A stretch of 34,300 nucleotides of DNA from Salinivirgaceae bacterium. GTDB taxonomy: Bacteria > Bacteroidota > Bacteroidia > Bacteroidales > SZUA-534. The stretch covers positions 1-34,300 of the forward strand of contig JAQICC010000174.1 in the NCBI GenBank assembly GCA_027858735.1. The letters are read 5' to 3'. This document shows positions 1-34,300 of this stretch, in pieces (position 1 is the first letter of the stretch; every line of letters begins with the position of its first letter). The position numbers and the translations under genes were made by a program. The notes under the pieces are model-generated. The model saw nothing but the letters and a program-made list of their open reading frames with translations, did not search any database and was not told the DNA's origin.

Positions 1-53
1 ATTAGGCGAGAGCCATTGAAAAAAAATTTATTATTAATTAAAAAAATTGAATT

Positions 54-290
54 ATGTCTGACGTTGCATCAAGAGTTAAAGCAATTATTGTTGACAAATT
101 AGGTGTTGATGAAAACGAAGTTACTCCAGAAGCTAGCTTCACAAACGATTTGGGAGCTGACTCTCTTGACACTGTAGAATTAATTATGGAATTCGAAAAA
201 GAATTCAATATTGCTATTCCTGACGATCAAGCTGAAAAAATTTCAACTGTTGGTGAGGCAATATCACATATTGACGAAAACGTTAAGTAG
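54..290 (+). CDS. acpP: Acyl carrier protein
   Basis: Small acidic carrier that holds growing fatty acyl chains on a phosphopantetheine arm in type II fatty acid synthesis in the cytoplasm. The 78-residue length is typical. The attachment motif [10 protein letters not shown] is present, with Ser37 as the modified serine, and the protein is rich in Asp and Glu. The ATG start follows an A-rich stretch with no clear Shine-Dalgarno, as is usual in Bacteroidota. fabF follows after 36 bases on the same strand, so the two are very likely co-transcribed. The 53 bases before it hold no recognisable gene. Confidence 0.98.
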
Positions 291-326
291 TTAAATCAAA
301 ATTGCAGTTTTAAATTTAGACACATT

Positions 327-1574
327 ATGGAATTAAAGAGAGTTGTAGTTACAGGAATTGGAACAATTAATCCATTAGGGAAAAACCTTGCCGAAACATG
401 GGATAGTTTGAAAAATGGTATTGGTGGTTCTGATAAAATTACACGCTTCGATGCGTCTAAATTTAAAACGCAATTTGCTTGTGAAGTAAAAAATTACAAC
501 CCTTTAGATTACTTTGACCGAAAAGAAGCACGCAAACTTGATATGTATGCACAATTTGCAATAATAGCTGCCACTGAAGCAGTAGAGGATGCTAAATTTG
601 ATGACCATATTGACAAAGACAGGGTTGGTGTTATTTGGTCGTCAGGTATTGGCGGGTTAATGTCTTTTCAAGACGAATGCTTAAATTTTGCAGCCGGTGA
701 CGGCACTCCTCGGTATAATCCATTTTTTATACCAAAAATGATTTCGGATATTGCTGCAGGGCAAATCTCCATTAAATATGGCTTTCACGGACCAAACTTC
801 GGAATTGTATCAGCTTGTGCTTCATCAACCAATGCTATTGGTGACGCCTTTAATTACATTCGCCTAGGTAAAGCTGATGTTTTTGTAACTGGTGGTTCTG
901 AAGCAACAATTTATGCTTCTGGTATTGGTGGTTTTAACTCAATGCAGGCACTTTCAACAAATAACGACGAATACAAAACAGCGTCTCGTCCGTTCTGTAA
1001 AACCCGCGATGGTTTTGTAATGGGCGAAGGCGGTGCCGGACTTATACTTGAAGAATACGAGCACGCCAAAGCTCGTGGAGCTAAAATTTACGCCGAAGTT
1101 GGTGGTGTTGGTTTCTCAGGAGATGCATATCATTTAACAGCTACTCACCCAGAAGGTTTAGGTGCTGCAAAATGTATGAATGAAGCTTTATTAGATGCCC
1201 AAATGCAACCAGAAAATCTTGACTATGTTAATGTTCATGGCACATCAACTCCAGTTGGAGATGTTCCTGAAACATTAGCCATTAAGAAGGTATTTGGTGA
1301 ACATGCTTACAAAATAAATATCAGTTCTACTAAATCAATGACTGGTCATCTTTTAGGAGCTGCCGGTGCACTGGAATCAATTGCTGTAATAATGGCAATT
1401 AATCACGGTACTATTCCTCCAACAATTAACCACAAGGAGAAAGACCCAAATATTGATGAAAAATTAAACTTGACCTTACATACTGCACAAAAACGCGAAG
1501 TTAGAGCTGCTTTAAGTAACACTTTTGGTTTTGGTGGCCACAATGCTTCGGTAATTTTTAAAAAATTTGAATAA
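327..1574 (+). CDS. fabF: 3-oxoacyl-ACP synthase II (KAS II)
   Basis: Condenses malonyl-ACP with acyl-ACP in fatty acid elongation. The 415 residues match the usual FabF length. The Cys-His-His triad is visible: Cys164 in VSACASSTNAIG, His304 in VNVHGTSTPVGD and His341 in KSMTGHLLGAAGA, with the conserved Lys336 just before the last. The C-terminus carries the usual FGFGGHNASVIF motif. It lies between acpP (36 bases upstream) and rnc (6 bases downstream), the standard Bacteroidota acpP-fabF-rnc operon. The cysteine and two histidines separate it from FabH (Cys-His-Asn). FabB is a less likely alternative given the length and the acpP linkage. Confidence 0.97.
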   Translation: MELKRVVVTGIGTINPLGKNLAETWDSLKNGIGGSDKITRFDASKFKTQFACEVKNYNPLDYFDRKEARKLDMYAQFAIIAATEAVEDAKFDDHIDKDRVGVIWSSGIGGLMSFQDECLNFAAGDGTPRYNPFFIPKMISDIAAGQISIKYGFHGPNFGIVSACASSTNAIGDAFNYIRLGKADVFVTGGSEATIYASGIGGFNSMQALSTNNDEYKTASRPFCKTRDGFVMGEGGAGLILEEYEHAKARGAKIYAEVGGVGFSGDAYHLTATHPEGLGAAKCMNEALLDAQMQPENLDYVNVHGTSTPVGDVPETLAIKKVFGEHAYKINISSTKSMTGHLLGAAGALESIAVIMAINHGTIPPTINHKEKDPNIDEKLNLTLHTAQKREVRAALSNTFGFGGHNASVIFKKFE

Positions 1575-1580
1575 ACAAAT

Positions 1581-2309
1581 TTGATAAAAGGATTCCTTTC
1601 ATTCCACTTTAAGCGCTTATTAAGCACTGATAAAGGGTTTCATGATGAACTCCGTAAAATTACTGGACTTTTCCCTGGTAATGAAGAGCTTTACAAACTA
1701 GCATTCATACACAAATCGGCATCATTACGTTTACCCGATGGCTTAGTAATAAATAATGAACGCTTAGAATTTTTAGGCGATGCTATTCTAGATGCAGTTA
1801 TTGCTGAATACTTGTATTCAAAATTTCCTAACGAAAAAGAAGGCTTTTTAACACAAACCCGATCAAAAATGGTAAATGGCGACTACTTAGGCCAACTTGC
1901 TATTCAACTGGGATTAGAAAAGTTTATTATTTCGCATGCCCACAATTTCAATTCAAATAAAAGTATTTTAGGCGATGCCTTTGAAGCGTTAATTGGTGCA
2001 ATATACTTAGACCATGGTTACAAAGCGGTAAAAAGATTTGTGTTTAAGCAACTGCTAAAAAAACATATTGACCTTAGCCAATTATTATTAACCGAAACCA
2101 ACTATAAAAGCCGATTAATTGAATGGGCTCAAAAAGATAGAAAAGAGGTGACTTTTAATACTGAATTAGAAGAAACTGAGGGTACGCTACCTGAATTTAT
2201 AAGTTTTGCTAAAGTTAATGATGAAATAATTGCCAAAGGGCACGGATGCTCAAAAAAAGAAGCTGAACAAAATGCTGCCAAAAATACTTTGAAGAAACTT
2301 ATCAAGTAG
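1581..2309 (+). CDS. rnc: Ribonuclease III
   Basis: Double-strand-specific endoribonuclease for rRNA and mRNA processing. The 242 residues hold an N-terminal RNase III domain (about residues 20-160) with the signature NERLEFLGDAILDAV and the second acidic motif LGDAFEALIGAIYLD. A C-terminal dsRNA-binding domain (about 175-242) ends in GCSKKEAEQNAAKNTLKKL. The start is a TTG. No in-frame ATG occurs before the catalytic domain, and the family's N-terminal helix (KGFHDELRKITGLFP) lies between the TTG and the signature, so TTG is the best start. It follows fabF by 6 bases and is probably translationally coupled. Confidence 0.96.
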   Translation: MIKGFLSFHFKRLLSTDKGFHDELRKITGLFPGNEELYKLAFIHKSASLRLPDGLVINNERLEFLGDAILDAVIAEYLYSKFPNEKEGFLTQTRSKMVNGDYLGQLAIQLGLEKFIISHAHNFNSNKSILGDAFEALIGAIYLDHGYKAVKRFVFKQLLKKHIDLSQLLLTETNYKSRLIEWAQKDRKEVTFNTELEETEGTLPEFISFAKVNDEIIAKGHGCSKKEAEQNAAKNTLKKLIK

Positions 2310-2327
2310 ATTCTTATAAAAGAATCT
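2308..2327 (+). terminator. Hairpin at the rnc stop codon
   Basis: A perfect 8-bp stem AGATTCTT/AAGAATCT with a 4-base loop begins at the last base of the rnc stop codon. No T-run follows, so it is an mRNA 3' stem or a weak terminator rather than a classical intrinsic terminator. It separates the acpP-fabF-rnc operon from the next gene, which has its own promoter-like element. Confidence 0.4.
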
Positions 2328-2370
2328 AAATCAACATTCTTAGGGAAAAATATTTTCTGAATAATTCTAT

Positions 2371-2405
2371 TTTGACCGGAAATTAATCTTGTTTTTGTAT
2401 TTTTG
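2371..2405 (+). promoter_or_regulatory. Putative Bacteroidota promoter before the IPExxxVDY gene
   Basis: TATTTTTG at 2398-2405 fits the Bacteroidota -7 consensus TAnnTTTG. TTTG at 2371-2374 could serve as the -33 element, 27 bases upstream. The -7 element ends 16 bases before the ATG at 2422. Identified by pattern only. Confidence 0.4.
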
Positions 2406-2421
2406 GCTCGATCTTTAAAAT

Positions 2422-2850
2422 ATGAGTAAAGCAATTAAACTAAAATTTGAACCCAACTACGAGTTTACTTTAATAGGTTTGGTAACTACTGAACCCATTT
2501 ATAAAATAAGCTGGCATTTAAATGAACAGCTTAATATTTTATTAAAAGAAACCAACCCACTTCAAGCCTATCAAACAAAAAGGCAGACCGTTCAAGAATT
2601 CTCAAAATTTTCATTTTTCACTCCTGAAGAAACAAATTATCACCTTATACAAAATAAAGGACAGCAAGGGATACTAATTGAAGAGCAAAAACAAATTGAT
2701 TATTGGTTGAAAATTGAAAGATGTTCAATTCGTTCTGAAGTAATTGTGGAAAAAATTAAAAGATTAAAAAATGTAACCCTGGCCTTTGATATAAAACCAG
2801 GTTCACTAAAATCAAAAAATCGTTTTATTTTTTCCGAAGAAGAAATCTAA
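2422..2850 (+). CDS. IPExxxVDY family protein
   Basis: A 142-residue protein with no signal peptide, resembling the uncharacterised IPExxxVDY family found almost only in Bacteroidota, which commonly lies next to rnc. The N-terminal part (NYEFTLIGLVTTEPIYKISWHL) and the position after rnc fit the family. The name-giving motif is altered here: the segment reads GILIEEQKQIDYWLKI, with IEE for IPE and IDY for VDY. The family's function is unknown. In relatives pyruvate kinase often follows; here it is absent, and the stop codon overlaps that of the convergent DUF2147 gene. Confidence 0.75.
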   Translation: MSKAIKLKFEPNYEFTLIGLVTTEPIYKISWHLNEQLNILLKETNPLQAYQTKRQTVQEFSKFSFFTPEETNYHLIQNKGQQGILIEEQKQIDYWLKIERCSIRSEVIVEKIKRLKNVTLAFDIKPGSLKSKNRFIFSEEEI

Positions 2851-3269
2851 AGACGAATCCATTCTTGAGTACGAAATAGGAATCCAATATAACCTCTTAC
2901 TTGCAGCTTATCTTCTTCTTCCCATATTTTACAATCGTATAACTTTCCAATTTCAGGGTCTAAAATACCGTCATCACCTTCATACGCATCATCATCTAAC
3001 TCTAAACCAGTAATAATCTCCATCCCCAATATCTTTTCCCCTTTACGATGGTCGGTACACTCAGTGCAAAGTTTATTTGGATCGGAATCTGGTTTTAATT
3101 CTACTATTTTACCATATAGTTTTCCTCCCCTAATCGTAATTTCAACTATCGATTTCATTTCACCAGTTTCATCATCAATAGTTTTCCACTTGCCTTCAAC
3201 TTTACCCTGTGCAAAAAGGCCAAATGTGGCAAATAATACCGAAATAAATAATAATGCAATACGCTTCAT
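2847..3269 (-). CDS. Secreted DUF2147 family protein
   Basis: A 140-residue protein with a signal peptide (residues 1-20, ending LFATFGLFAQ), so probably periplasmic or secreted. The mature part follows the DUF2147 pattern: GKWKTIDDETGE near the start, a central GKLYGKIVEL, a Cys pair in LCTECTDHRKGEKILGMEI, then GILDPEIGKLYDCKIWEE and a closing VRGYIGFLFRTQEW. The domain is a small lipocalin-like beta fold of unknown function. Its stop codon (TAG, 2847-2849 on the minus strand) overlaps the stop of the convergent gene. The MFS transporter gene downstream (ending 3354) is on the same strand but lies upstream in transcription. Confidence 0.85.
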   Translation of the reverse strand: MKRIALLFISVLFATFGLFAQGKVEGKWKTIDDETGEMKSIVEITIRGGKLYGKIVELKPDSDPNKLCTECTDHRKGEKILGMEIITGLELDDDAYEGDDGILDPEIGKLYDCKIWEEEDKLQVRGYIGFLFRTQEWIRL

Positions 3270-3353
3270 CTGTTTATTATTTTAGTTTATATTTTTTAGG
3301 TTCACACAAAATACTAAATATTTATTATCAAAAAAAAGGTAATACGGAGCGAT

Positions 3354-4610
3354 CTAGTAATTATTTGCCTTAAACTTTGTTTTAAGGGTTATGAACGGTA
3401 CTAAAAAAAGTACAATTAGCCCAACAACTGTTAGCGCTTGCCATACTCCATATCGATCGGCTAAAAATCCAATAATTATTGCCAGAACACTAGCAAATAA
3501 CGAATCAAATAACGACTGAATAGATAAGGCTGTGGCCATAACCTCGTTTTCAACTTTTTCCGCTACTAATCCTGTACCAACAGGTTTTCTAATATTCTGA
3601 ACAATAAAAATTAATACGAATAAAACAGCAGCTAAACCTGCCATTGATTTATAAATAAAAAGGCCCGATAATAAACCCATAAAAATTCCTATAATCAGCG
3701 AATAATTCATTGTTTTTTCAGAACCCCCTAACCACAACATTAAATGGTTTGCATATCGTGAGGCTGCCGAAGACAATATATAAATTGCAAAATATACAAG
3801 CCCTAGTAATAGGGTTGATTTTCTGTCAGGATTAACATCAGTTAAAATAATTGTGGAACCTACAGCCAATAGAATTATGGGCTGCAAATAATCTTTTATA
3901 GCTTTGAAATACCCCTGAAATGTTGCCATGTTAAATAGAGCTTTCCATAACTGATCAGCTTTTGCTGATTGCTTTGAATTAGCGTAGAGAATTTTCATTC
4001 GCTGTTTTATACTTAAACTTTTTTCTACATGGATAGGCCCATCGAGCTTAGCCGGATAACTCCATATTAGCATAAAGTTCACTATATAAGGAACTGTAGA
4101 AGCCAAAAATATTATTTCATAATTCCCTGTAAAAATAACTATACCGGCTGCTAATAGGGATGATATGGCTGAACCAAGCTGTGACCACGATCGGGTATGA
4201 CCATAATAAGCTACTTTTTCTGATTGCCAACTGTTATGCTTTAAATAATCGAATATCATAGCTTTGTGAGTGCCTGTTCTAAGGGTATCGCCAAAACTAT
4301 AAAACAACATTCCTAGTAAAAGCAAGGCGTAACTGGTCGAATAATAAAATACAATAAATGATATTATATAGGTTAAAAACGAAGTCATTATGGTCTTTTT
4401 ACGCCCTAAAACATCAGCAATAACTCCGGTTGGTATTTCAAGAATATTAATGCTTATTTCGCGCAAAGCATATAATGTTCCTATTTGTAGAAAGCTAATG
4501 CCTTTACTTAAAAAGAAAAGCATTAAAAAGGGTTCAAAAAACTTTAAGTTCTTAAAAAACCCATAAAGACAAAATTTATAGTATTGTTTGTTTTTTTTGA
4601 ATTTGTTCAT
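3354..4610 (-). CDS. MFS transporter
   Basis: A 418-residue inner-membrane protein with about 12 hydrophobic segments. The loop between helices 2 and 3 carries the major facilitator motif A-like sequence GVIADVLGRKKTIM (about residues 62-75). A shorter related motif, GFLADRYGVWQ, sits near residue 385 in the C-terminal half. A central hydrophilic loop (around residues 190-220) separates the two six-helix halves. The substrate cannot be told from sequence; it could be an exporter of drugs or metabolites. It shares strand with the DUF2147 gene but the 84-base gap does not prove an operon. Confidence 0.85.
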   Translation of the reverse strand: MNKFKKNKQYYKFCLYGFFKNLKFFEPFLMLFFLSKGISFLQIGTLYALREISINILEIPTGVIADVLGRKKTIMTSFLTYIISFIVFYYSTSYALLLLGMLFYSFGDTLRTGTHKAMIFDYLKHNSWQSEKVAYYGHTRSWSQLGSAISSLLAAGIVIFTGNYEIIFLASTVPYIVNFMLIWSYPAKLDGPIHVEKSLSIKQRMKILYANSKQSAKADQLWKALFNMATFQGYFKAIKDYLQPIILLAVGSTIILTDVNPDRKSTLLLGLVYFAIYILSSAASRYANHLMLWLGGSEKTMNYSLIIGIFMGLLSGLFIYKSMAGLAAVLFVLIFIVQNIRKPVGTGLVAEKVENEVMATALSIQSLFDSLFASVLAIIIGFLADRYGVWQALTVVGLIVLFLVPFITLKTKFKANNY

Positions 4611-23817: not shown

Positions 23818-24735
23818 CTAAAAGAACCTAGAAATCTTGGGTCTATCTTCTGTTTTTATCAAATCGTAGGTTAACATTATTTCATGCGAACCGCTTGATG
23901 CTTTTCGCATTTTGCTTAAGGTAATATCATAAGCATAGCCTAACCTAAATCTATTGTCTATTTGCACCTGAGTTATTATTGCAAGAGCATCACCAGTTCT
24001 ATATGATAAACCTCCCCAAATCATTTCTCGGAATAAAAAATTTGCTGTAATATCCACTGATGGTGGAGAACCTTTTACCATTTTACTATGTATTGATGGT
24101 TTAAACGTAATCTCCCTATTAATCTTGTAAACATATCCGCCAATAATAAAAAAGTGTCGCTCCTCACCTCCCGAAACATCATCAGTACCTTCGTATTTAT
24201 GGTTAACCATTTTTGGTGAGGATACCCCAAAATAAAAATCGTCGCGATAGGCAAATAAACCCAAGCCAAAATTAGGCATTAAATCTCCATAAACATCTTT
24301 TGAGAACTGTTCATCTTCCACACCCTCTTGCCCAATTTTTGAAAAGTCGGCTGAAAAAACCTTAAAACCTGCTTTTAAACCCATTCCAAGTTTAATACCA
24401 TAGGCAACTTTAATGTGGTAAGCATAATCAAAATACAAGTTGTTAGAACGCTCAGGTCCTACTTTATCGTAAAAATACGAAAGTCCCACTCCTGAATTAT
24501 ATTTAGGAAGGGGCACATCGGCGGTTAAAGAGTAAGTGTTGGGAGCCCCTTCAAAACCTACCCATTGAAACCTATTTACGGTCATAAACGACATATAGTC
24601 GGCACGGCCAATTGCTGCCGCATTAACCGACGACAAGTTAAACATGTATTGAGTATATAAAGGATCTTGTTGTGCTTTCAGCGTAAAAGTTGAAGCAACT
24701 AATAATAAAATGGCTATATGTTTCATGATCTTCAT
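23818..24735 (-). CDS. PorP/SprF family type IX secretion membrane protein
   Basis: Outer-membrane protein of the PorP/SprF family, needed in known systems for secretion or attachment of proteins with type B T9SS domains. The likely start is the ATG at 24735 (or 24726), which begins a signal peptide (KHIAILLLVASTFTLKAQ). The longer frame to 24813 would overlap the adhesin gene and puts 26 unlikely residues before the signal. The mature protein has the family opening QDPLYTQYMFNLSSVNAA, the FQWVGFEGAPNTYSL motif, GVGLSYFYDKVGP, and alternating barrel strands to LGYAYDITLSKM near the end. It follows the giant adhesin gene by 16 bases, almost certainly one operon. Confidence 0.92.
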   Translation of the reverse strand: MKIMKHIAILLLVASTFTLKAQQDPLYTQYMFNLSSVNAAAIGRADYMSFMTVNRFQWVGFEGAPNTYSLTADVPLPKYNSGVGLSYFYDKVGPERSNNLYFDYAYHIKVAYGIKLGMGLKAGFKVFSADFSKIGQEGVEDEQFSKDVYGDLMPNFGLGLFAYRDDFYFGVSSPKMVNHKYEGTDDVSGGEERHFFIIGGYVYKINREITFKPSIHSKMVKGSPPSVDITANFLFREMIWGGLSYRTGDALAIITQVQIDNRFRLGYAYDITLSKMRKASSGSHEIMLTYDLIKTEDRPKISRFF

Positions 24736-24751
24736 TTTTTCGTTATTCAAC

Positions 24752-27700
24752 TTAATACTTAATGTAAACATAACCTTTAACAGGCTTTTTCTGGTTCTCA
24801 ATAAACAATACATAAAAGTAGGTTCCTACAGGTAGAATGGTATTTGTTTGGCGCGATCGACCATCCCAGGTATTGTTGTAATTTTTTTGTGTAAATATTT
24901 TACTTCCCCAACGACTGTAAACCATCAACTCATTAATTGGATAGTCTTCCATATTTTGTATCACAAACAAGTCATTAATACCATCGCCATTTGGTGAAAA
25001 TCCATCTGAAATTACAAGGTTATCGATGCTGGTTATACCATTTACAGTAATGGTCAGCATTGCGTCAGCAGTACCACCATTATTATCTGATATGGAATAT
25101 AAAAACTCATCTTCCAAAATATCACCATCATCAAGATCATGAATTTGTTCAGATAGGGAATCAAGTACGAATTCGTATGTCCCAGTAGTATTCCAAGTTA
25201 AAGTTCCGTAATAACCAGTCATAGTTTTTTCATTGGCATTAGCATTTACACTTCTTACCTCAAGATTATTGGCATCTTCATCTGTATCATTTTCTAGTAA
25301 ATTCCCCGATACACTTCTTTCATCTTCATACATGCTATTTGCATCGTTATTTGCTATAGGATCATGGTTAACTGGTCTTTCGTCATTACCCATAATTATT
25401 ATGGTAAGCAAACTCTGAACTGACGGATTATCTCCATCGGATACCCGATGCGTAAAACTCTTCATTATCTGCTCGCCTGCATACAGCGTGCTTAACTCAC
25501 TATAGTTGTTATTTAAGCTAAAAGTGAATGAACCATCGTAATTCCAATCTAAAGTACCTTGTTCGCGCTTTAAATCAACTTCTTCATCAAGTTCCGATAC
25601 AAACTGGATAACCTGTAGTTGATCTCCATTTTCATCGCTATCGTTTGTTAACAAATTACCAGATACATCAACCTCTCCCTCAATAATATATACCGTATCA
25701 TTCGTAACAATTGGCACCATGTTTACTTCATCATCGGAACCTATAATTTCAACTACTAATTGAGCTCCACCAATACCTCCATTAACATCAGTTATTTGAT
25801 AATCAAATGTTTCGCTAAGCTTTTGTCCGGCATTTAGTAATTGAACTATTTCCAACGCCGAATTCAAATTATAAATGAAGGAACCGTCGCCGTTCCAATC
25901 AATAGTTCCAAAACTTCCGGCTGATTTTCCAGCTCCAAGACTAACTAGATTAACACTGGTAACATAGATACTGTCACCATCTATATCAGTATCGTTTAAT
26001 AGTAGATTCCCTGTAACTGTTGCCGCATCTTCATCAATACTTACCATATCATTTGTGGCAAGAGGATTATTATTTGCATCATCGTTACCCATTATTGTTA
26101 TATAAATCTTAGAAAATATTGAGGTATCAATACCATCAGAAATTGTATAGGTATAATAATCAACAATGGTATCACCAGTCATTAAATTTTGAACGGTGTC
26201 TAAATTATTATTTAAATAATACGTATAAGAACCTCCCGATACACACTGAACATAACCGAACTGACCAGAAATACTATCAATAGCAGATTGATCGTTTATT
26301 GACGAAACTAACAAAGTTCCATTTTCTGAATCTGTGTCATTCAGCAGCAAATTACCCGCTACTAAAACACTGTCTTCAAAAATATAATTAGTATCTGGTA
26401 AGGCTAATGGCAAATCGTTAACCGGATTAATGGTAAGGACAACAATAGCTTCGTTACTTTCCATTATTCCGTCGGACACTTTGTAAACAATAGTATCAGC
26501 AAAATTCTCAGATCCGTTGTGAATGTACTCGAATGATCCGTTGCTATTAAAAGTAAGTGAACCTTGTGTAACATTCGTCACCAATTCAGCAATAAGCTCC
26601 TTACCCTCTTCATCAATATCGTTTGCTAAAATGCCAGATGCTGATATGGTTAAGGTATCACCTTCATTTACGGAATATGCATCGTTATTGGCAACCGGTG
26701 CCATATTGGTTTCCCGAATATCAACTACTACTTTTGCCACATCATAATCGCCATCAACATCTATTAATGTATAGGTAAATTCATCGCTACCAACATACCA
26801 ATTTGCCGGTATATAGGTAATGGTTTTATCGGCATTTACTTTCACTATTCCATTGTTTGGATTTGTAGCTATAGAAATACCCAATAAACCATCATCAAGT
26901 CCTGAATCATTTAATAATACATCAATTGAAACTGGAATATTCAAGAAGGTAATGGTCGAATCATTCACAGCATCAGGTACTGCGTTGGTTTTCTTTACAT
27001 TAATTGTTACCGTAGCCGTATCGCAATCGCCATCGGCATCGCAAACGCGATAATTGAAACTATCCTCGCCTAAGTAATCAGTGCTAGGTGTATAAGTAAT
27101 GGTATTGTCAATATTGACTATAATATTGCCATTAGTGGGTAATGTGGTTGCTTCCACTACAATTCCACCGTCTTCAAGTTCGGTATCGTTAAATAATACA
27201 TCGATTTCAACCGGTAGGTTAATTGCGGTAGCACGCTTATCATCAAGGGCTACAGGTATATGGTTTTGTTTTTGGCTTACGGTTACATAAACCGTTGCCA
27301 TTGAATAATCACCATCAACATCGTTAACTAGATATTTTAAACTGTCATTACCTACAAACCAAGAGCTTGGAGTGTAAGTTATGGTTTTATTGGCATTTAC
27401 TACCGTTTTACCATGCTGTGGCTGAGTAAATACATAAACTCCCATTACGCCATCTTCAAGACCAGAATCGTTTGCCAGAACATTCACATTCACCGGGATA
27501 TTGATTTCTGTTGCAACGGAATCGTTCGCTGCCACAGGAATTTCATTGGTAAGTTTTACATTTATAGTAACTATAGCTGAATCAGAATCGTTTTGTGCAT
27601 CAGCTACTCTATAAGTAAAGCTATCGGTGCCTAAGAAATCGGTATCAGGTGTATACGATATGGTATTGCCAGCATTAACAACAATGGTTCCGTTTGCTGG

Positions 27701-30700
27701 TGTAGATAAAGCTGACAGTATAATTCCACCATCATCCAATCCAGAGTCGTTAATTAAAACATCGACAATTACCGGAGTATTAATCACTGTTCCTCTTGAA
27801 TCATCAACCGCTACTGGAAGATAATTAGGCTTTTCCGTAATGCTAATGTAAACGCTTGCCAATCCAAGGTCACCATTTAAATCAGTGACAACATATTGTA
27901 GGCTATCAGAACCCAAATACCATTTATACGGACTATAAGTTATGGAATTATCGGAATTTACCGTTACGGTTCCATTTACAGGTTGTTGATGAATGGTTAT
28001 GCTTTCCAAACCATCATCCAAACCAATATCATTATTCAAAATATGAACCACCAAATCGGTATTCATAAATGTTGAAACGGTATCGTTAAGCGCAGTAGGA
28101 ACGGCATTATTTTCTTTAACTTCAATGCTTACTTTTGCAGTGTCGCAATCACCATCGGCATCGCAAACGCGGTATTCGAAACTATCAAATCCCAAATAAT
28201 CAGCTGCGGGAGTATAAATAACAACATTACTGCTATTTACAGCAATGCTTCCATTGACCGGATTACTAACAGGTGTTACAACAATTCCACCATCTTCAAG
28301 ACCATAATCGTTAAATAATACATCAACCAATAAAGGACTATTGATGCTGGTTGCCCTGCTATCGTCAACCGCAACGGGAACAGCATTTTGTTTAGCATTA
28401 ATGGTGATGATCAAAGTTGCCTTGCCGCAATCGCCTTGTTTATCCTCCACCATATAAACCAGACTATCGACACCCACATACCAGCGAGCCGGAGTATAAG
28501 TTATGGTGTGGTCGGCATTTACAACAGCCGTACCATTAAGTGGCGCTGTGTAAATACTTAGTGAATCAACACCATCTTCAAGTCCCGTATCGTTGTTAAG
28601 CACATTCACACGAACTTTTGTATCCATTATAGTAGTTGCAGCATCATTGATGGCAACAGGAATGGAATTAAATTCCAGTACATAAATGGTTACGCTTGCG
28701 GTGTCTCCTTCCCCATCATCATCAAGCACACGGTAATTAAAGGTATCGGTACCCAAATAATCGGTATTAGGAGTATAAGTAATGGTATTATCGGAATTTG
28801 CTAAAACTGTGCCATTAGCAGGATCAGTAATTGCTTCAACCACGATACCTCCATCACCTAATCCTAAATCGTTCACCAATACATCAACAATACGAGCTGT
28901 ATTTATTGATGTTCCGCGAGAATCGTCAACAGCTATCGGTACTTCATTTGGTTTGGTTTGAATGGTTATATAAACCGTAGCAATACTGTTATCGCCATGG
29001 ATATCTTCCACCATATATTTTAAACTGTCGGTTCCCAAATACCAGGTTGCCGGTGTATATGTAATGGTATGATCAACAGTATTGACTTCCACACTACCGT
29101 TCAATGGATCGCTGAAAATAGTTACTTGCTTAATTCCATCTTCCAGACCAAGGTCGTTTTGGAGCACATTAACCATTATAGCCGTATTCATATTGGTTAT
29201 AACTGTATCGTTTACAGCGAGTGGTTCTGCGTTGGTTTCGTTAACCTCAATGGTAACTGTGGCGTTGTCGCATTCATTATCAGAATCGCACACTGAATAG
29301 GTAAAGGTATCGGTGCCTAAGTAGTCGGTGTTTGGTGTGTAGGTAATGGTATTGTCGGTTTTAACCTCAAGTGTACCATTAGCAGGTGGTGTGCCTGAGC
29401 TTACAACAATGCCACCATCTTCAAGACCTAAATCGTTGATGAGCACATCGACAACAACAGACTTATTAATGGCAGTACCTCTTGAATCGTCAACGGCTAC
29501 CGGAATGGCATTTTGTTTGCTTGTTATGGTTATGAAAACTTCGGCAACACTTTTGTCGCCTTCAGTATCTTCCACCACATATTCAAAGGCATCGGTACCC
29601 ACATACCAATTATAAGGGGTGTAAGTTACCGTATGATCAGCATTCACAACTACCGCCCCATTTTTAGGCTGGCTGTATATACCTACCGAATCGACACCAT
29701 CGTTAAGGTCGGTATCGTTATTCAGCACATTAATGGCTACGGAATGATTCATTTGGGTTGTAGCCGTATCGTTCACTGCAACAGGTTCGTAGTTATGGAA
29801 TTTAACGGTTATTGTTACTGTTGCGGTATCAGCATCACCATCAGCATCTGCAACCCTGTAATTGAAAGTATCGGTGCCTAAATAATCGGCATTTGGTGTA
29901 TAAGTAATCGTACTATCACCATTTACTACTATTAATCCATTTGTTGGAGTTGTAGTGTTTGTAACTATAATGCCGCCATCTTCAAGTCCGGTATCGTTGA
30001 ATAATACATCAACTGTAACGGCTGTATTAATTGATGCACCTCTGCGATCGTTTACGGCAAGCGGCACAAAATTTGGCCTTTCACTAATGGTGATAATTAC
30101 CGTTGCCATGTCAGGGTCACCATTTTCATCAGCAATAACATAGTGCAGACTATCAGTTCCCACATACCAGTTTGCCGGAGTGTAACTTAAAGTATTATCG
30201 GCGTTCACAACTACAGCGCCATGTTTTGGCTGAAGTTTAATGTATAAGGTATCCAAACCATCTTCTAAACCTAAATCGTTGGTTAGTACATTTACATCGA
30301 AACCGGTATTCATGTAAGTTGAAACCGTATCATTAAAGGCCAATGGTATGGCATTAGTCAGATTCACATCCATGGTTACAGTTGCGGTATCGCAATCGCC
30401 ATGCTTATCACAAACACTATAGTCAAAGCTATCGTAACCTAAATAATCGGTATTTGGAGTATAGGTAATGGTATTATCGGTAATATTTACCACAATACCA
30501 CCATTCGATGGCAACATTGAGGTGCTTGTAACTACAATACCGCCATCTTCAAGTCCGGTATCGTTAAGCAGTACTTTGATTTTCCTTGCTGTATTAATGG
30601 CTGTAGCTCTTTCATCATCAACAGCTACTGGCACAAAGTTTGGTTTTTCAATGACCTTAACCACAACGGTAGCCAAACTGAAATCGCTATCAACATCAGA

Positions 30701-33700
30701 AATTTCGTAGGTAAATGTTTGCGTTCCTTTATAATAATTAGCCGGAGTATAAGTAATGGTCAAATCATTATTAACAATAGCCTGACCAAAAGCCGGTTTC
30801 CTTTTGATAATTAGGGTATCAAGTCCTTCTTCAAGACCGGTATCGTTATTCAGAACATCTATATTAATGGCTGTATTCATGTAGGTTTCTACCGTATCGT
30901 TTATAGCAAGAGGTTCAATATTAATACCTTCTTTCACAGTTACAGTAACCGTGGCGTTATCCGAATCGCCATTGGCATCGGTAATGGTATATTCAAAAGT
31001 GGCGGAGCCAATAAAATCCTGAGCTGGAGTAAAGGTTATAATGGTGTCATCAACTACTAATGTTTTACCCTGTAGTGGATCGGGAAGTAATGATACAGAA
31101 ACAATAATAGGAACATCTTCCAAACCGGTATCGTTATGCAATACTTCAATTGCTCGTGGGGTATTAAAGCTGGCTGCCACGCGATCATCTTTGGCTACAG
31201 GAATGGCATTTGGTCGTTCAATAATATCAACTGTAACAAGTGCTGAATCCCAATCTCCATGAAGATCGACAGCACGGTAGGCAAAAGTTATTTGACCAAT
31301 AAACAAATTTTCAGGTGTATAGGTAATGGTATTGTCGTCGTTAATTTTTGCCATACCAAGGCTTGGTTCAGAATGGATTGCCAAGCTGTCAAACCCGTCT
31401 TCCAAGCCAGTTACATAACTCATTACATCAATTACTTTTGGGGTGTTCATATGGGTAGTGGCACTAACATCGCCTGCAATAGGTAGATGATTAACTACTC
31501 CATAGGGTAGAACTGTTACGGTAACCAATGCGCTATCGGTATCGGTATCAGCATCGGTAACTTTATACTTAAAGGTTGTAGTGCCGCTAAATCCGTTAGC
31601 TGGTGTAAAATCAAATGTATTGCCATTTAATTCCACTTTTCCTTCTGTTGCAAGAGGAGGTGTACTAATGCTTACGGTTATGGGTTCATTGTCTAAACCG
31701 GTATCATTATAAAGCACATTAATGTTTGTTAGCGTTTCGTATTCCGCTGCTAGAGATAAGGGGTTAGCAACCGGATGCACATCTGTATTTACTGTAATAG
31801 TAACAGTAGCTTCGGCATGCACTTCAGGAGTATCTCCAAAATTCCAAACTTGGTAATCTATGGTAACCTCTAAACCTTCTTCAATGGCATTGGGAGTATA
31901 GGTCATTAATCCTGTTAGCGGATCAAGAGATACTGTACCTGTGCCTGTGCCTGTGCCTAAATCAGCAAGATATATATCAGCTCCTGGTAAAAAGTCATCA
32001 TTCAAAAGAATATTGACTGATTCTGTTTCTCCCATTGTTACAACCAATACATCGTTAAGTGCAGTAGGAACTAATGGGTGAGGATCGGTAGTGTCAGGAT
32101 TGCCGTCATTATCATCATCCGTATCTATGTCATCCGGGATACCATCATTATCCGTATCCAATTTCACTTCAACTATCCAATCTTCGCTATCAGAATTATT
32201 ATCTGCGTCAACTACATTGATAGTTAACATATATCTATTGTCCAAATCGGCATCAGTTGGATTCTCATAATCTTTCGCTACCATGCTAACAATACCGGAA
32301 TCGGCATCGATGGTAAAATCATCGGAATCAATTCCAGATAAACTATAAGTTATATTCCCGATAGGAACTCCTACAATTACCGGTTTATTACTAACATAAG
32401 CAAAGCCTTCAACAACCGTGGAATCATTTATTTCAGCAATAGTATAGTTTGATATTTCAGGTACATCAAGAATGGTAACCGTCCAGTTTTCAATATCGGA
32501 GTTACCATCCCCATCAATAGCAATAAGGGTTAATTCATATACATTATTTGAATCTGCATCAACCGGATTTTCAAAACTTTGTGCAATCATATCAACAACT
32601 CCCGTAGTTGGATTAACGCTAAAGTCTGATGCATCAGCGCCGCCCAAGGAATAGGTTAAAGTTGGAACAGGTGTACCTGAAATTACAGGAGTTTCACTTG
32701 TATAGGCACTATTTTCATTAACATTTACATCTATAATTTCTTGAATATTAAAATCTACTATTTCAACCAAATCCTGAATAGTTACCAGCCAATCTTCGCT
32801 ATCAGAATTATTATCATCATCGGTTACTATAATCGTTAAGGAATAAATATTATTTAGGTCGGCATCCTCAGGATTTTCATAGTTTCTGGCAACCATTGTT
32901 ACTACACCAGAATTCATATCAATTGAGAAAGCACTTGCATCATCTCCAAATATAGCATAACTAAAATTTCCTATAGGAGTGTCGCCAGACAAAACAGGAG
33001 TTTCACTTATATAGGCAGCGTTTTCATCAAGATCAAAATCGTCAATGGGATTTATAGTAAAATTCGATTCTTCTTCTACATCAATTACAGTAAGTGTCCA
33101 TGGCTCATCATCGGTATTGCCGTCCGCATCTGTTGCAATTACAGATATTTCATAGACATTATCAAGATCGGCATCGGTAGGTAATTCAAAATTATGAGAT
33201 GCCATGTTAACGACTCCTGTAGAAGCATTAACAGTAAATTCCGCTACATCTGCACCTGTCAATGAATAAGTAACTATTCCAATTGGGCTTCCAGTAATGG
33301 TTGGAGCCAGTGTAACATAAGTGCCATTTTCGTTTACTGAAACATTCGCAATTTCATCGATGCTAAAACTTATAACTTCAATAACATCAACTACAGTTAC
33401 TATCCAATCTTCCGTATCATCATTGCCATCAGCATCAGTGGCGGTAATGGTTAATTCATATATATTATCAGTATTGGCATCTACTGCACTTTCATAATCT
33501 CTGGCAACCATACTTACTATGCCATTAGATGCGTTGATGGTGAAATCTGATTCATCCGCTCCTCCTAAGGTGTAAGTTAAACTTCCGATTGGTGAATCGC
33601 CGGTTAATGCAGGGGTTGCTCCGGTGTAAACAGAATTTTCATTTACACTTGCATCGCCAATGGCATTTATGGTAAAAGTAGCTGATTCTATAACATCATT

Positions 33701-34300
33701 TACGGTTACTGTCCAACCTTCTGTATCATCATTGCCATCAGCATCAGTAGCGGTAATGGTTAATTCATATATATTATCGGTATTGGCATCTGCTGCACTT
33801 TCATAATCTCTGGCAACCATACTTACTATGCCATTGGATGCATTGATGGTGAAATCTGATGCATCGGCTCCTCCTAAGGTATAGGTTAAACTTCCGATTG
33901 AAGGTCCTGATATCGATGGCAGAACACTTGTATAAACACTATTTTCATTAATATTTAAATTTACAATTTCATCAATGGTAAAATTAGCTACTTCTATAAC
34001 ATCATTTACAGTTACTGTCCAGGCTTCTGTATCATCATTACCATCGGCATCGGTGGCGGTTATACTCAATTCATAAACATTATCGGTATTGGCATCTTCA
34101 GCATTTTCATAGTTACGAGCTACCATGCTTACAACACCTGTCGTAGCATTGATCGTAAAATCAGAAGCATCGCTTCCTCCGAAACTATAAGTTACACTGC
34201 CAATGGGCGTATCGCCGCTTAATGAAGGTGTTGCTCCGGTGTAGGCATTATTCTCATTAACATTTGCGTCCCCTATGGCATCAATGGTAAAGCTTGCAGC
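24752..34300 (-). CDS. Giant multidomain adhesin with T9SS type B sorting domain (5' end beyond the window)
   Basis: An open frame of 3182 codons plus stop, still open at the window edge, so the signal peptide and true start lie outside. From the N-terminal side it has seven cadherin-like repeats of about 102 residues, an Asp-rich calcium-binding linker (DTDNDGIPDDIDTDDDNDG), about twenty Big_9/cadherin-like domains of about 94 residues in alternating A and B types, four VCBS-like repeats of about 112 residues, and a final CHU_C-type domain (GFSPNGDGINDLF to VKGYVYIKY) that marks it for type IX secretion. The many DxDxD-type loops imply calcium-stiffened rods. With PorP/SprF directly downstream it resembles the SprB-SprF pair, so a role in adhesion or gliding is likely but unproven. 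Confidence 0.93.
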   Translation of the reverse strand, partial: AASFTIDAIGDANVNENNAYTGATPSLSGDTPIGSVTYSFGGSDASDFTINATTGVVSMVARNYENAEDANTDNVYELSITATDADGNDDTEAWTVTVNDVIEVANFTIDEIVNLNINENSVYTSVLPSISGPSIGSLTYTLGGADASDFTINASNGIVSMVARDYESAADANTDNIYELTITATDADGNDDTEGWTVTVNDVIESATFTINAIGDASVNENSVYTGATPALTGDSPIGSLTYTLGGADESDFTINASNGIVSMVARDYESAVDANTDNIYELTITATDADGNDDTEDWIVTVVDVIEVISFSIDEIANVSVNENGTYVTLAPTITGSPIGIVTYSLTGADVAEFTVNASTGVVNMASHNFELPTDADLDNVYEISVIATDADGNTDDEPWTLTVIDVEEESNFTINPIDDFDLDENAAYISETPVLSGDTPIGNFSYAIFGDDASAFSIDMNSGVVTMVARNYENPEDADLNNIYSLTIIVTDDDNNSDSEDWLVTIQDLVEIVDFNIQEIIDVNVNENSAYTSETPVISGTPVPTLTYSLGGADASDFSVNPTTGVVDMIAQSFENPVDADSNNVYELTLIAIDGDGNSDIENWTVTILDVPEISNYTIAEINDSTVVEGFAYVSNKPVIVGVPIGNITYSLSGIDSDDFTIDADSGIVSMVAKDYENPTDADLDNRYMLTINVVDADNNSDSEDWIVEVKLDTDNDGIPDDIDTDDDNDGNPDTTDPHPLVPTALNDVLVVTMGETESVNILLNDDFLPGADIYLADLGTGTGTGTVSLDPLTGLMTYTPNAIEEGLEVTIDYQVWNFGDTPEVHAEATVTITVNTDVHPVANPLSLAAEYETLTNINVLYNDTGLDNEPITVSISTPPLATEGKVELNGNTFDFTPANGFSGTTTFKYKVTDADTDTDSALVTVTVLPYGVVNHLPIAGDVSATTHMNTPKVIDVMSYVTGLEDGFDSLAIHSEPSLGMAKINDDNTITYTPENLFIGQITFAYRAVDLHGDWDSALVTVDIIERPNAIPVAKDDRVAASFNTPRAIEVLHNDTGLEDVPIIVSVSLLPDPLQGKTLVVDDTIITFTPAQDFIGSATFEYTITDANGDSDNATVTVTVKEGINIEPLAINDTVETYMNTAINIDVLNNDTGLEEGLDTLIIKRKPAFGQAIVNNDLTITYTPANYYKGTQTFTYEISDVDSDFSLATVVVKVIEKPNFVPVAVDDERATAINTARKIKVLLNDTGLEDGGIVVTSTSMLPSNGGIVVNITDNTITYTPNTDYLGYDSFDYSVCDKHGDCDTATVTMDVNLTNAIPLAFNDTVSTYMNTGFDVNVLTNDLGLEDGLDTLYIKLQPKHGAVVVNADNTLSYTPANWYVGTDSLHYVIADENGDPDMATVIITISERPNFVPLAVNDRRGASINTAVTVDVLFNDTGLEDGGIIVTNTTTPTNGLIVVNGDSTITYTPNADYLGTDTFNYRVADADGDADTATVTITVKFHNYEPVAVNDTATTQMNHSVAINVLNNDTDLNDGVDSVGIYSQPKNGAVVVNADHTVTYTPYNWYVGTDAFEYVVEDTEGDKSVAEVFITITSKQNAIPVAVDDSRGTAINKSVVVDVLINDLGLEDGGIVVSSGTPPANGTLEVKTDNTITYTPNTDYLGTDTFTYSVCDSDNECDNATVTIEVNETNAEPLAVNDTVITNMNTAIMVNVLQNDLGLEDGIKQVTIFSDPLNGSVEVNTVDHTITYTPATWYLGTDSLKYMVEDIHGDNSIATVYITIQTKPNEVPIAVDDSRGTSINTARIVDVLVNDLGLGDGGIVVEAITDPANGTVLANSDNTITYTPNTDYLGTDTFNYRVLDDDGEGDTASVTIYVLEFNSIPVAINDAATTIMDTKVRVNVLNNDTGLEDGVDSLSIYTAPLNGTAVVNADHTITYTPARWYVGVDSLVYMVEDKQGDCGKATLIITINAKQNAVPVAVDDSRATSINSPLLVDVLFNDYGLEDGGIVVTPVSNPVNGSIAVNSSNVVIYTPAADYLGFDSFEYRVCDADGDCDTAKVSIEVKENNAVPTALNDTVSTFMNTDLVVHILNNDIGLDDGLESITIHQQPVNGTVTVNSDNSITYSPYKWYLGSDSLQYVVTDLNGDLGLASVYISITEKPNYLPVAVDDSRGTVINTPVIVDVLINDSGLDDGGIILSALSTPANGTIVVNAGNTISYTPDTDFLGTDSFTYRVADAQNDSDSAIVTINVKLTNEIPVAANDSVATEINIPVNVNVLANDSGLEDGVMGVYVFTQPQHGKTVVNANKTITYTPSSWFVGNDSLKYLVNDVDGDYSMATVYVTVSQKQNHIPVALDDKRATAINLPVEIDVLFNDTELEDGGIVVEATTLPTNGNIIVNIDNTITYTPSTDYLGEDSFNYRVCDADGDCDTATVTINVKKTNAVPDAVNDSTITFLNIPVSIDVLLNDSGLDDGLLGISIATNPNNGIVKVNADKTITYIPANWYVGSDEFTYTLIDVDGDYDVAKVVVDIRETNMAPVANNDAYSVNEGDTLTISASGILANDIDEEGKELIAELVTNVTQGSLTFNSNGSFEYIHNGSENFADTIVYKVSDGIMESNEAIVVLTINPVNDLPLALPDTNYIFEDSVLVAGNLLLNDTDSENGTLLVSSINDQSAIDSISGQFGYVQCVSGGSYTYYLNNNLDTVQNLMTGDTIVDYYTYTISDGIDTSIFSKIYITIMGNDDANNNPLATNDMVSIDEDAATVTGNLLLNDTDIDGDSIYVTSVNLVSLGAGKSAGSFGTIDWNGDGSFIYNLNSALEIVQLLNAGQKLSETFDYQITDVNGGIGGAQLVVEIIGSDDEVNMVPIVTNDTVYIIEGEVDVSGNLLTNDSDENGDQLQVIQFVSELDEEVDLKREQGTLDWNYDGSFTFSLNNNYSELSTLYAGEQIMKSFTHRVSDGDNPSVQSLLTIIIMGNDERPVNHDPIANNDANSMYEDERSVSGNLLENDTDEDANNLEVRSVNANANEKTMTGYYGTLTWNTTGTYEFVLDSLSEQIHDLDDGDILEDEFLYSISDNNGGTADAMLTITVNGITSIDNLVISDGFSPNGDGINDLFVIQNMEDYPINELMVYSRWGSKIFTQKNYNNTWDGRSRQTNTILPVGTYFYVLFIENQKKPVKGYVYIKY
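24755..25033 (-). other. Type B (CHU_C) T9SS C-terminal sorting domain
   Basis: The last 93 residues of the adhesin. ISDGFSPNGDGINDLFVI opens it, then ELMVYSRWGSKIF, and ILPVGTYFYVLF before the closing VKGYVYIKY. This is the gliding-motility/CHU_C pattern that directs the protein through the type IX secretion pore, with the help of PorP/SprF proteins. Confidence 0.9.
25034..26416 (-). repeat. Four VCBS-like repeats of the adhesin
   Basis: Four units of about 110-117 residues. Each has a GNLLxNDTD motif near its start (AGNLLLNDTDS, TGNLLLNDTDI, SGNLLTNDSDE, SGNLLENDTDE), a middle YGTLTWN-like strand, and DGxxSFIYNLN-type strands. They lie just before the sorting domain. Confidence 0.8.
26417..32071 (-). 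repeat. Alternating A/B Big_9/cadherin-like domain array of the adhesin
   Basis: About twenty domains of 93-96 residues. Type A opens with PVAVDDSRGTxIN, carries NDxGLEDGGIVV and DYLGTDTFxYRV. Type B opens with PxAxNDTVxTxMNT, carries NDxGLEDGVDSLxI and WYVGTDSLxYxVED. A and B alternate strictly for domains 4-19. The first two domains are diverged and the last one (26417-26704) is a capping type. Cysteine pairs mark every second A domain, giving a four-domain period of 1122-1125 bases. Confidence 0.85.
31933..31958. repeat. Hexamer microsatellite in the adhesin
   Basis: CTGTAC followed by three CTGTGC units, encoding a Gly-Thr run (GTGTGTG). Gain or loss of a unit would keep the frame. Confidence 0.6.
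32081..32161 (-). other. Asp-rich calcium-binding linker (thrombospondin type 3-like)
   Basis: The segment DTDNDGIPDDIDTDDDNDG then NPDTTDPHP has the spacing of thrombospondin type 3 calcium-binding repeats. It separates the cadherin-like array from the Big_9 array. Confidence 0.75.
32162..34300 (-). repeat. Tandem cadherin-like repeats of the adhesin (continuing past the window)
   Basis: Seven repeats of about 101-103 residues, the first cut by the window edge. Each has xFTIxxIxDxxVNENxxY, then LGGADASDFTINxxxGIVSMVARDYE, and IYELTITATDADGNxDxExWTVTV. The calcium-binding DxDGN loop recurs in most copies. The copies around 33410-33600 and 33720-33900 are nearly identical at DNA level, offset by 309 bases. 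Confidence 0.85.

Follow-up and report, generated by a model that had tools for sequence, protein, structure and literature searches.

Sparse four-domain marks on a two-domain repeat in the predicted stalk of a Salinivirgaceae adhesin

The DNA analysed here, called the window, is the entire 34,300-nt contig JAQICC010000174.1 of a Salinivirgaceae bacterium (contig C58). On its minus strand lies the reading frame of a giant adhesin, which is open on its 5' side, the contig stopping inside the gene at position 34300. From N to C terminus the encoded protein consists of cadherin repeats with a period of about 309 bp, an Asp-rich DxDxDG linker, an array of domains D1-D18, VCBS/cadherin-like domains and a type IX secretion system (T9SS) type B sorting domain. 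The array domains are Ig-like (Big_9, "tandem-95"), have about 94 residues each and are of two kinds, A and B, which alternate strictly from D4 to D18 with a period of about 187 aa, or 561 bp (Table 1). A preliminary description of this DNA let the A/B array extend over 26417-31000, of which the part 26417-26707 is a different, cadherin-like domain outside the array.

Table 1. Features of the adhesin gene and its neighbour in the window
Feature	Position	Strand	Remarks
Giant adhesin ORF	24752..34300	-	3182 aa in window
Tandem-95/Big_9 array D1-D18	26708..31780	-	profile matches, domain alignment
D4, B domain	30641..30922	-	starts NI, ends KP
D5, A domain	30356..30640	-	C-x5-C (Cys codons 30412, 30394)
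D6, B domain	30074..30355	-	starts NA, ends RP
D7, A domain	29795..30073	-	without Cys
D8, B domain	29513..29794	-	starts NY, ends KQ
D9, A domain	29234..29512	-	C-x5-C (Cys codons 29290, 29272)
D10, B domain	28949..29233	-	starts NA, ends KP
D11, A domain	28670..28948	-	without Cys
D12, B domain	28388..28669	-	starts NS, ends KQ; one unpaired Cys
D13, A domain	28109..28387	-	C-x5-C (Cys codons 28165, 28147)
D14, B domain	27827..28108	-	starts NA, ends KP
D15, A domain	27548..27826	-	without Cys
D16, B domain	27266..27547	-	starts NE, ends KQ
D17, last A domain	26987..27265	-	C-x5-C (Cys codons 27043, 27025)
D18, last B domain	26708..26986	-	starts NA, ends RET
CHU_C/T9SS type B sorting domain	24761..25012	-	profile match
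PorP/SprF family gene, directly downstream of adhesin	23818..24813	-	profile match

Profile matches to Big_9 comprise 23 stretches of the adhesin, and its repeats score above the curated cut-offs both of Big_9 (974 bits against 23.6) and of the tandem-95 profile (757 bits against 90). At the C terminus, CHU_C is matched with 93 bits (cut-off 27) and TIGR04131, of the Bac_Flav_CTERM type, with 51.4 bits (cut-off 35). A PorP/SprF gene is a usual neighbour of T9SS type B cargo; the ORF listed for it here overlaps the end of the adhesin, and the true start of the gene is probably nearer 24752. Judged from these matches, the adhesin is a predicted T9SS type B protein with a tandem-95/Big_9 stalk and would be a protein of an already known kind. 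It resembles arrays of NCBIfam NF012211 and Big_9 (PF17963) that carry a T9SS type B domain in its domain family, its unit of about 94 residues, its CHU_C C terminus and its PorP/SprF neighbour. It differs from the usual tandem-95 arrays in that two diverged domain kinds alternate strictly, in an order that is common to the orthologues in six genomes (G004, G042, G250, G328, G215 and G115). The repeats of CshA-type fibrillar adhesins (PF19076, TIGR04225), for which a stalk role has likewise been proposed, match the same repeats more weakly, and these proteins are anchored by sortase whereas the present one has a T9SS sorting domain. In the adhesin parts scanned by profile there is neither an adhesive Pfam domain nor a CshA ligand-binding head. 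By its architecture and by analogy with the fibrillar adhesin class (PMC8286594), the stalk would most likely hold the N-terminal part of the protein away from the cell.

That N-terminal part is most likely encoded on another contig of the same genome (C304), where a minus-strand ORF of 1235 aa (L085, positions 3-3707) starts with MQKLTQVLVKYLLVISILIQLTPNLLAEG, which is signal-peptide-like by look, and runs at its 3' end into cadherin repeats of the same kind as those in the window. Compared with the N-terminal part of the orthologue L060, from genome G042, it gives 45% over 772 aa. The assembler would then have broken the gene within its repeats, and the join is absent from the assembly. The orthologues agree in this N-terminal part and in the A/B array towards the C terminus and differ in the middle, which is occupied by cadherin repeats in the window (32155-34300) and by tandem repeats of another kind, about 110 aa long, in L060 (about residues 760-2320); the middle repeat module appears to have been swapped among them. 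The repeat in L060 looks Calx-beta-like by eye, and a Calx-beta Pfam match to it is absent at 1e-5.

A second and longer period is superposed on the alternation of A and B. Within the array, a C-x5-C motif occurs in D5, D9, D13 and D17 only, and consecutive motifs are spaced by 1122, 1125 and 1122 bp, precisely as had been described, except that the positions previously taken for motif starts are those of the second Cys of each pair. Each B domain that follows a Cys-bearing A domain starts with N-Ala (NAIPLAF, NAEPLAV, NAVPTAL and NAVPDAV in D6, D10, D14 and D18), while the B domains D4, D8, D12 and D16 do not. The alternation also claimed for the ends of the B domains is found as P, Q, P, Q, P, Q from D6 to D16 but not outside this stretch, where D2 and D4 have P like D6, and D18 has T. 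From these marks the preliminary description proposed three or more copying events, each of the entire block A(Cys)-B1-A-B2. The marks exist, but identities, block comparisons, trees and relatives give the copied block little support, as detailed below. Apart from the pairs, the lone Cys of D12 (28427-28429) aligns with the second Cys of the pair found in A domains, although D12 is a B domain.

An AlphaFold2 model of D9-D12, computed with 44 alignment rows, is all beta, with a mean pLDDT of 94.4 and a pTM of 0.72. In D9, the first Cys (model residue 75) closes strand 66-75 and the second (residue 81) opens strand 81-91, so that the two probably lie opposite one another on either side of the turn in the last hairpin. 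In view of this geometry, a disulfide between the A-domain Cys is likely to form after export. A Foldseek search returned generic cadherin and RTX-extender chains (6xi1) with low overall TM-scores, and a sequence search among solved structures gave weak matches only (the RTX protein 36gk and KIAA0319L).

When four domains are copied together, domains n and n+4 are expected to be consistently more alike than domains n and n+2 over their whole sequence. For D4-D18, the mean protein identities at lags 1 to 8 are 0.445, 0.564, 0.452, 0.579, 0.446, 0.554, 0.440 and 0.546, and the corresponding DNA identities are 0.541, 0.615, 0.539, 0.609, 0.542, 0.614, 0.540 and 0.617. The even lags are set apart from the odd ones, and lag 4 is slightly above lag 2 for protein and not for DNA. 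At 11 comparable positions lag 4 exceeds lag 2 in eight cases for protein and in three for DNA, so that the excess foreseen by the preliminary description is not consistent and, for protein, its converse does not hold throughout either. When the two Cys columns are left out, the protein identities are 0.585 at lag 4 and 0.574 at lag 2, with lag 4 higher at 7 of the 11 positions. The longer units among the DNA repeat families are spaced by 561-567 bp, not by 1122 bp. To compare whole blocks, D9-D12 is 63% and 57% alike with the in-register blocks D5-D8 and D13-D16, and 60% and 58% alike with the blocks D7-D10 and D11-D14, which are shifted by two domains. Being in register does not raise the similarity between four-domain blocks.

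The contribution of individual alignment columns can be judged by dividing the seven A/B units into groups of four and three and ranking the alternating division among all 35 possible ones. Strongly splitting columns number five for the alternating split, the highest value of all 35, the next best having three; they are the two Cys columns, B column 1 (the Ala), B column 35 and B column 102 (the P/Q). Such an excess is expected about once in 35 and was picked after the fact. Over all columns the alternating split ranks third for protein, seventh for protein without Cys, 19th for DNA and 34th for third codon positions. The A domains alone place it third, or 18th without their Cys columns, and the B domains alone ninth for protein; with DNA the two ranks are 17 and 19, respectively. 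In a window of 30 columns sliding over the unit, the period is strongest at the A-B junction (rank 2 of 35), and the segment that runs from the Cys hairpin into the beginning of B takes first place. A localised period at this junction was considered and rejected, since without the Cys and Ala columns the segment drops to rank 8 for protein and 31 for DNA. Framing the unit as B-A instead of A-B was likewise discarded, its rank being 5 with Cys and 12 without. Of roughly 190 columns only about five bear the four-domain period, and the shorter A-B period governs the DNA and the remaining protein columns: the marks form a real and sparse pattern, and the sequence as a whole does not have a four-domain period.

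How much of an early event could still be seen depends on the age of the copies. The identity at fourfold degenerate third positions is 0.364, 0.360, 0.439 and 0.360 at lags 2, 4, 6 and 8 and stays within 0.35-0.44 at all lags, and identical residues are encoded by the same codon with frequency 0.50-0.55, where codon usage by itself predicts 0.46. Whatever the lag, synonymous sites have come close to saturation, and none of the copies, long or short, is recent. Since all copies are old, an old ABAB duplication would show only at constrained residues. One may then suppose an ancient tandem duplication of the whole block A(Cys)-B1-A-B2, after which all but a few constrained residues drifted to saturation. 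The exact spacing of the Cys pairs with the linked B marks is what such an event would leave behind, as is the first place of the alternating split in strong columns, and multi-domain copying is common among domain repeats generally (PMC1553488). In the A-domain and B-domain trees, which are unresolved, the clades predicted by this scheme are neither supported nor rejected: constraining D7+D11+D15 costs 5.1 log units (AU p = 0.139), D8+D12+D16 costs 1.3 (AU p = 0.365) and D6+D10+D14+D18 costs 4.5 (AU p = 0.096). An old duplication of the block is nevertheless judged unlikely, as outside the mark columns there is no clear lag-4 excess in DNA or protein, the in-register blocks are no closer than shifted ones, and the pattern is missing from the nearest relative, to be described next.

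Relatives were searched in sets of 79 and 393 genomes, among which no genome of the same genus was returned. Orthologous A/B arrays are present in G004, which belongs to the same family, in G042, G250 and G328, which belong to one genus (g30), and in G215 and G115, which belong to the same order; in all six the period-4 Cys pattern is absent. The array of G004, the nearest relative, is cut by a contig end and reads A(-)B A(-)B A(Cys)B; its first two A-B pairs are lag-2 copies, 92% and 74% alike, and all three of its B domains start with NA, whether or not Cys occurs upstream. The array of G215 has 27 domains, with lag-2 copies that are 96%, 96% and 90% alike and a Cys pair in the last A domain and in the first, outlying domain only. 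Recent copying that is visible in the relatives thus appears to proceed in two-domain steps (G004, G215). In G042, G250 and G328 there are about 20 domains each, about the same number across the three, with Cys pairs at other places than in the window, and the domains of their adhesins (L060, L078 and L080) largely group position by position in a tree, which suggests that the array is stable at the level of the genus. A comparison of domains 6-9 with domains 10-13 of L060 gives 80, 82, 69 and 69%, a hint that an older four-domain copy was made in this genus. If so, four-domain copying has occurred in the adhesin family, which speaks for the old duplication and against a purely two-domain history.

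The internal A domains of L060, L078 and L080 also carry "RGC" single-Cys marks. As in D17 of the window, the last A domain has a Cys pair in L079 (G215), L059 (G004) and L082 (G115), and the upstream A domains seen in these orthologues are without one, save the outlying first domain of G215; the Cys-bearing last A may possibly be a conserved terminal domain. D18, which follows it in the window, groups with the last B domain of G004 in the domain tree. In many more distant Bacteroidota arrays nearly every domain has a Cys pair. NA follows a Cys-bearing domain in 4 of 4 cases here and in 2 of 140 elsewhere, by which a structural rule of the fold that couples Cys to a following NA is ruled out; the link is local. 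From the other placement of Cys in relatives and from the 2 cases in 140, it follows that the Cys period and the link between Cys and NA are not general features of the family.

An alternative with a quite different emphasis is that selection keeps a disulfide-locked A domain at every fourth position, tuning the stiffness or the unfolding force of the stalk. Even spacing of the pair would be expected from this, the period is kept by the Cys columns and junction residues but not seen at neutral sites, and the model places the Cys at hairpin ends. Yet the arrangement is conserved in none of the orthologues, with Cys at other positions in g30 and confined in G215 to the domains named above, and relatives evidently tolerate irregular placement of Cys. 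Selection of this kind is very improbable. We put equally little faith in a combination of the two schemes, a secreted stalk with a selected super-period in which every fourth Ig-like domain is stapled by a disulfide, the arrangement stemming from an ancient ABAB duplication and being kept for mechanical reasons.

What we consider probable is a two-domain stalk repeat with sparse four-domain marks, which do not go back to the copying of a whole four-domain cassette. In a long fibrillar adhesin secreted by the type IX system (type B), the array would make up the stalk, a chain of alternating A and B Ig-like domains with the A-B pair of 187 aa, or 561 bp, as its repeating unit. It would have grown by copying of A-B pairs, a mode that is seen in relatives and is presumed for the species of the window, where the copies are old. 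The Cys pair and a few other residues, mostly near domain junctions, recur at every second A-B pair, and they are best taken as single residues kept or lost in separate A-B copies; the domain family commonly has Cys pairs. Chance could account for their arrangement, or the A-to-B junction could have been inherited locally. Counter to this two-domain reading stand the slight protein excess of lag 4, the five strong columns of the alternating split and the hint from L060.

Among eukaryotic repeat proteins, multi-domain units are known to duplicate, sevens in nebulin and fours in fibronectin-3 (PMC1553488). These proteins likewise have a higher-order unit of several homologous domains, but their period shows over whole domains, while here it is confined to a few columns. 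For bacterial Ig-like stalks no description of a higher-order period was found in the open-access literature, which is a weak negative. A repeat protein can carry regular marks without blocks having been copied. For this adhesin family it is useful that strict A/B alternation is common to several families of the order, that recent growth appears to have been mainly by A-B pairs and that a Cys-bearing last A domain is common to several orthologues. Should the four-domain marks prove to be selected, they would offer a handle on stalk mechanics.
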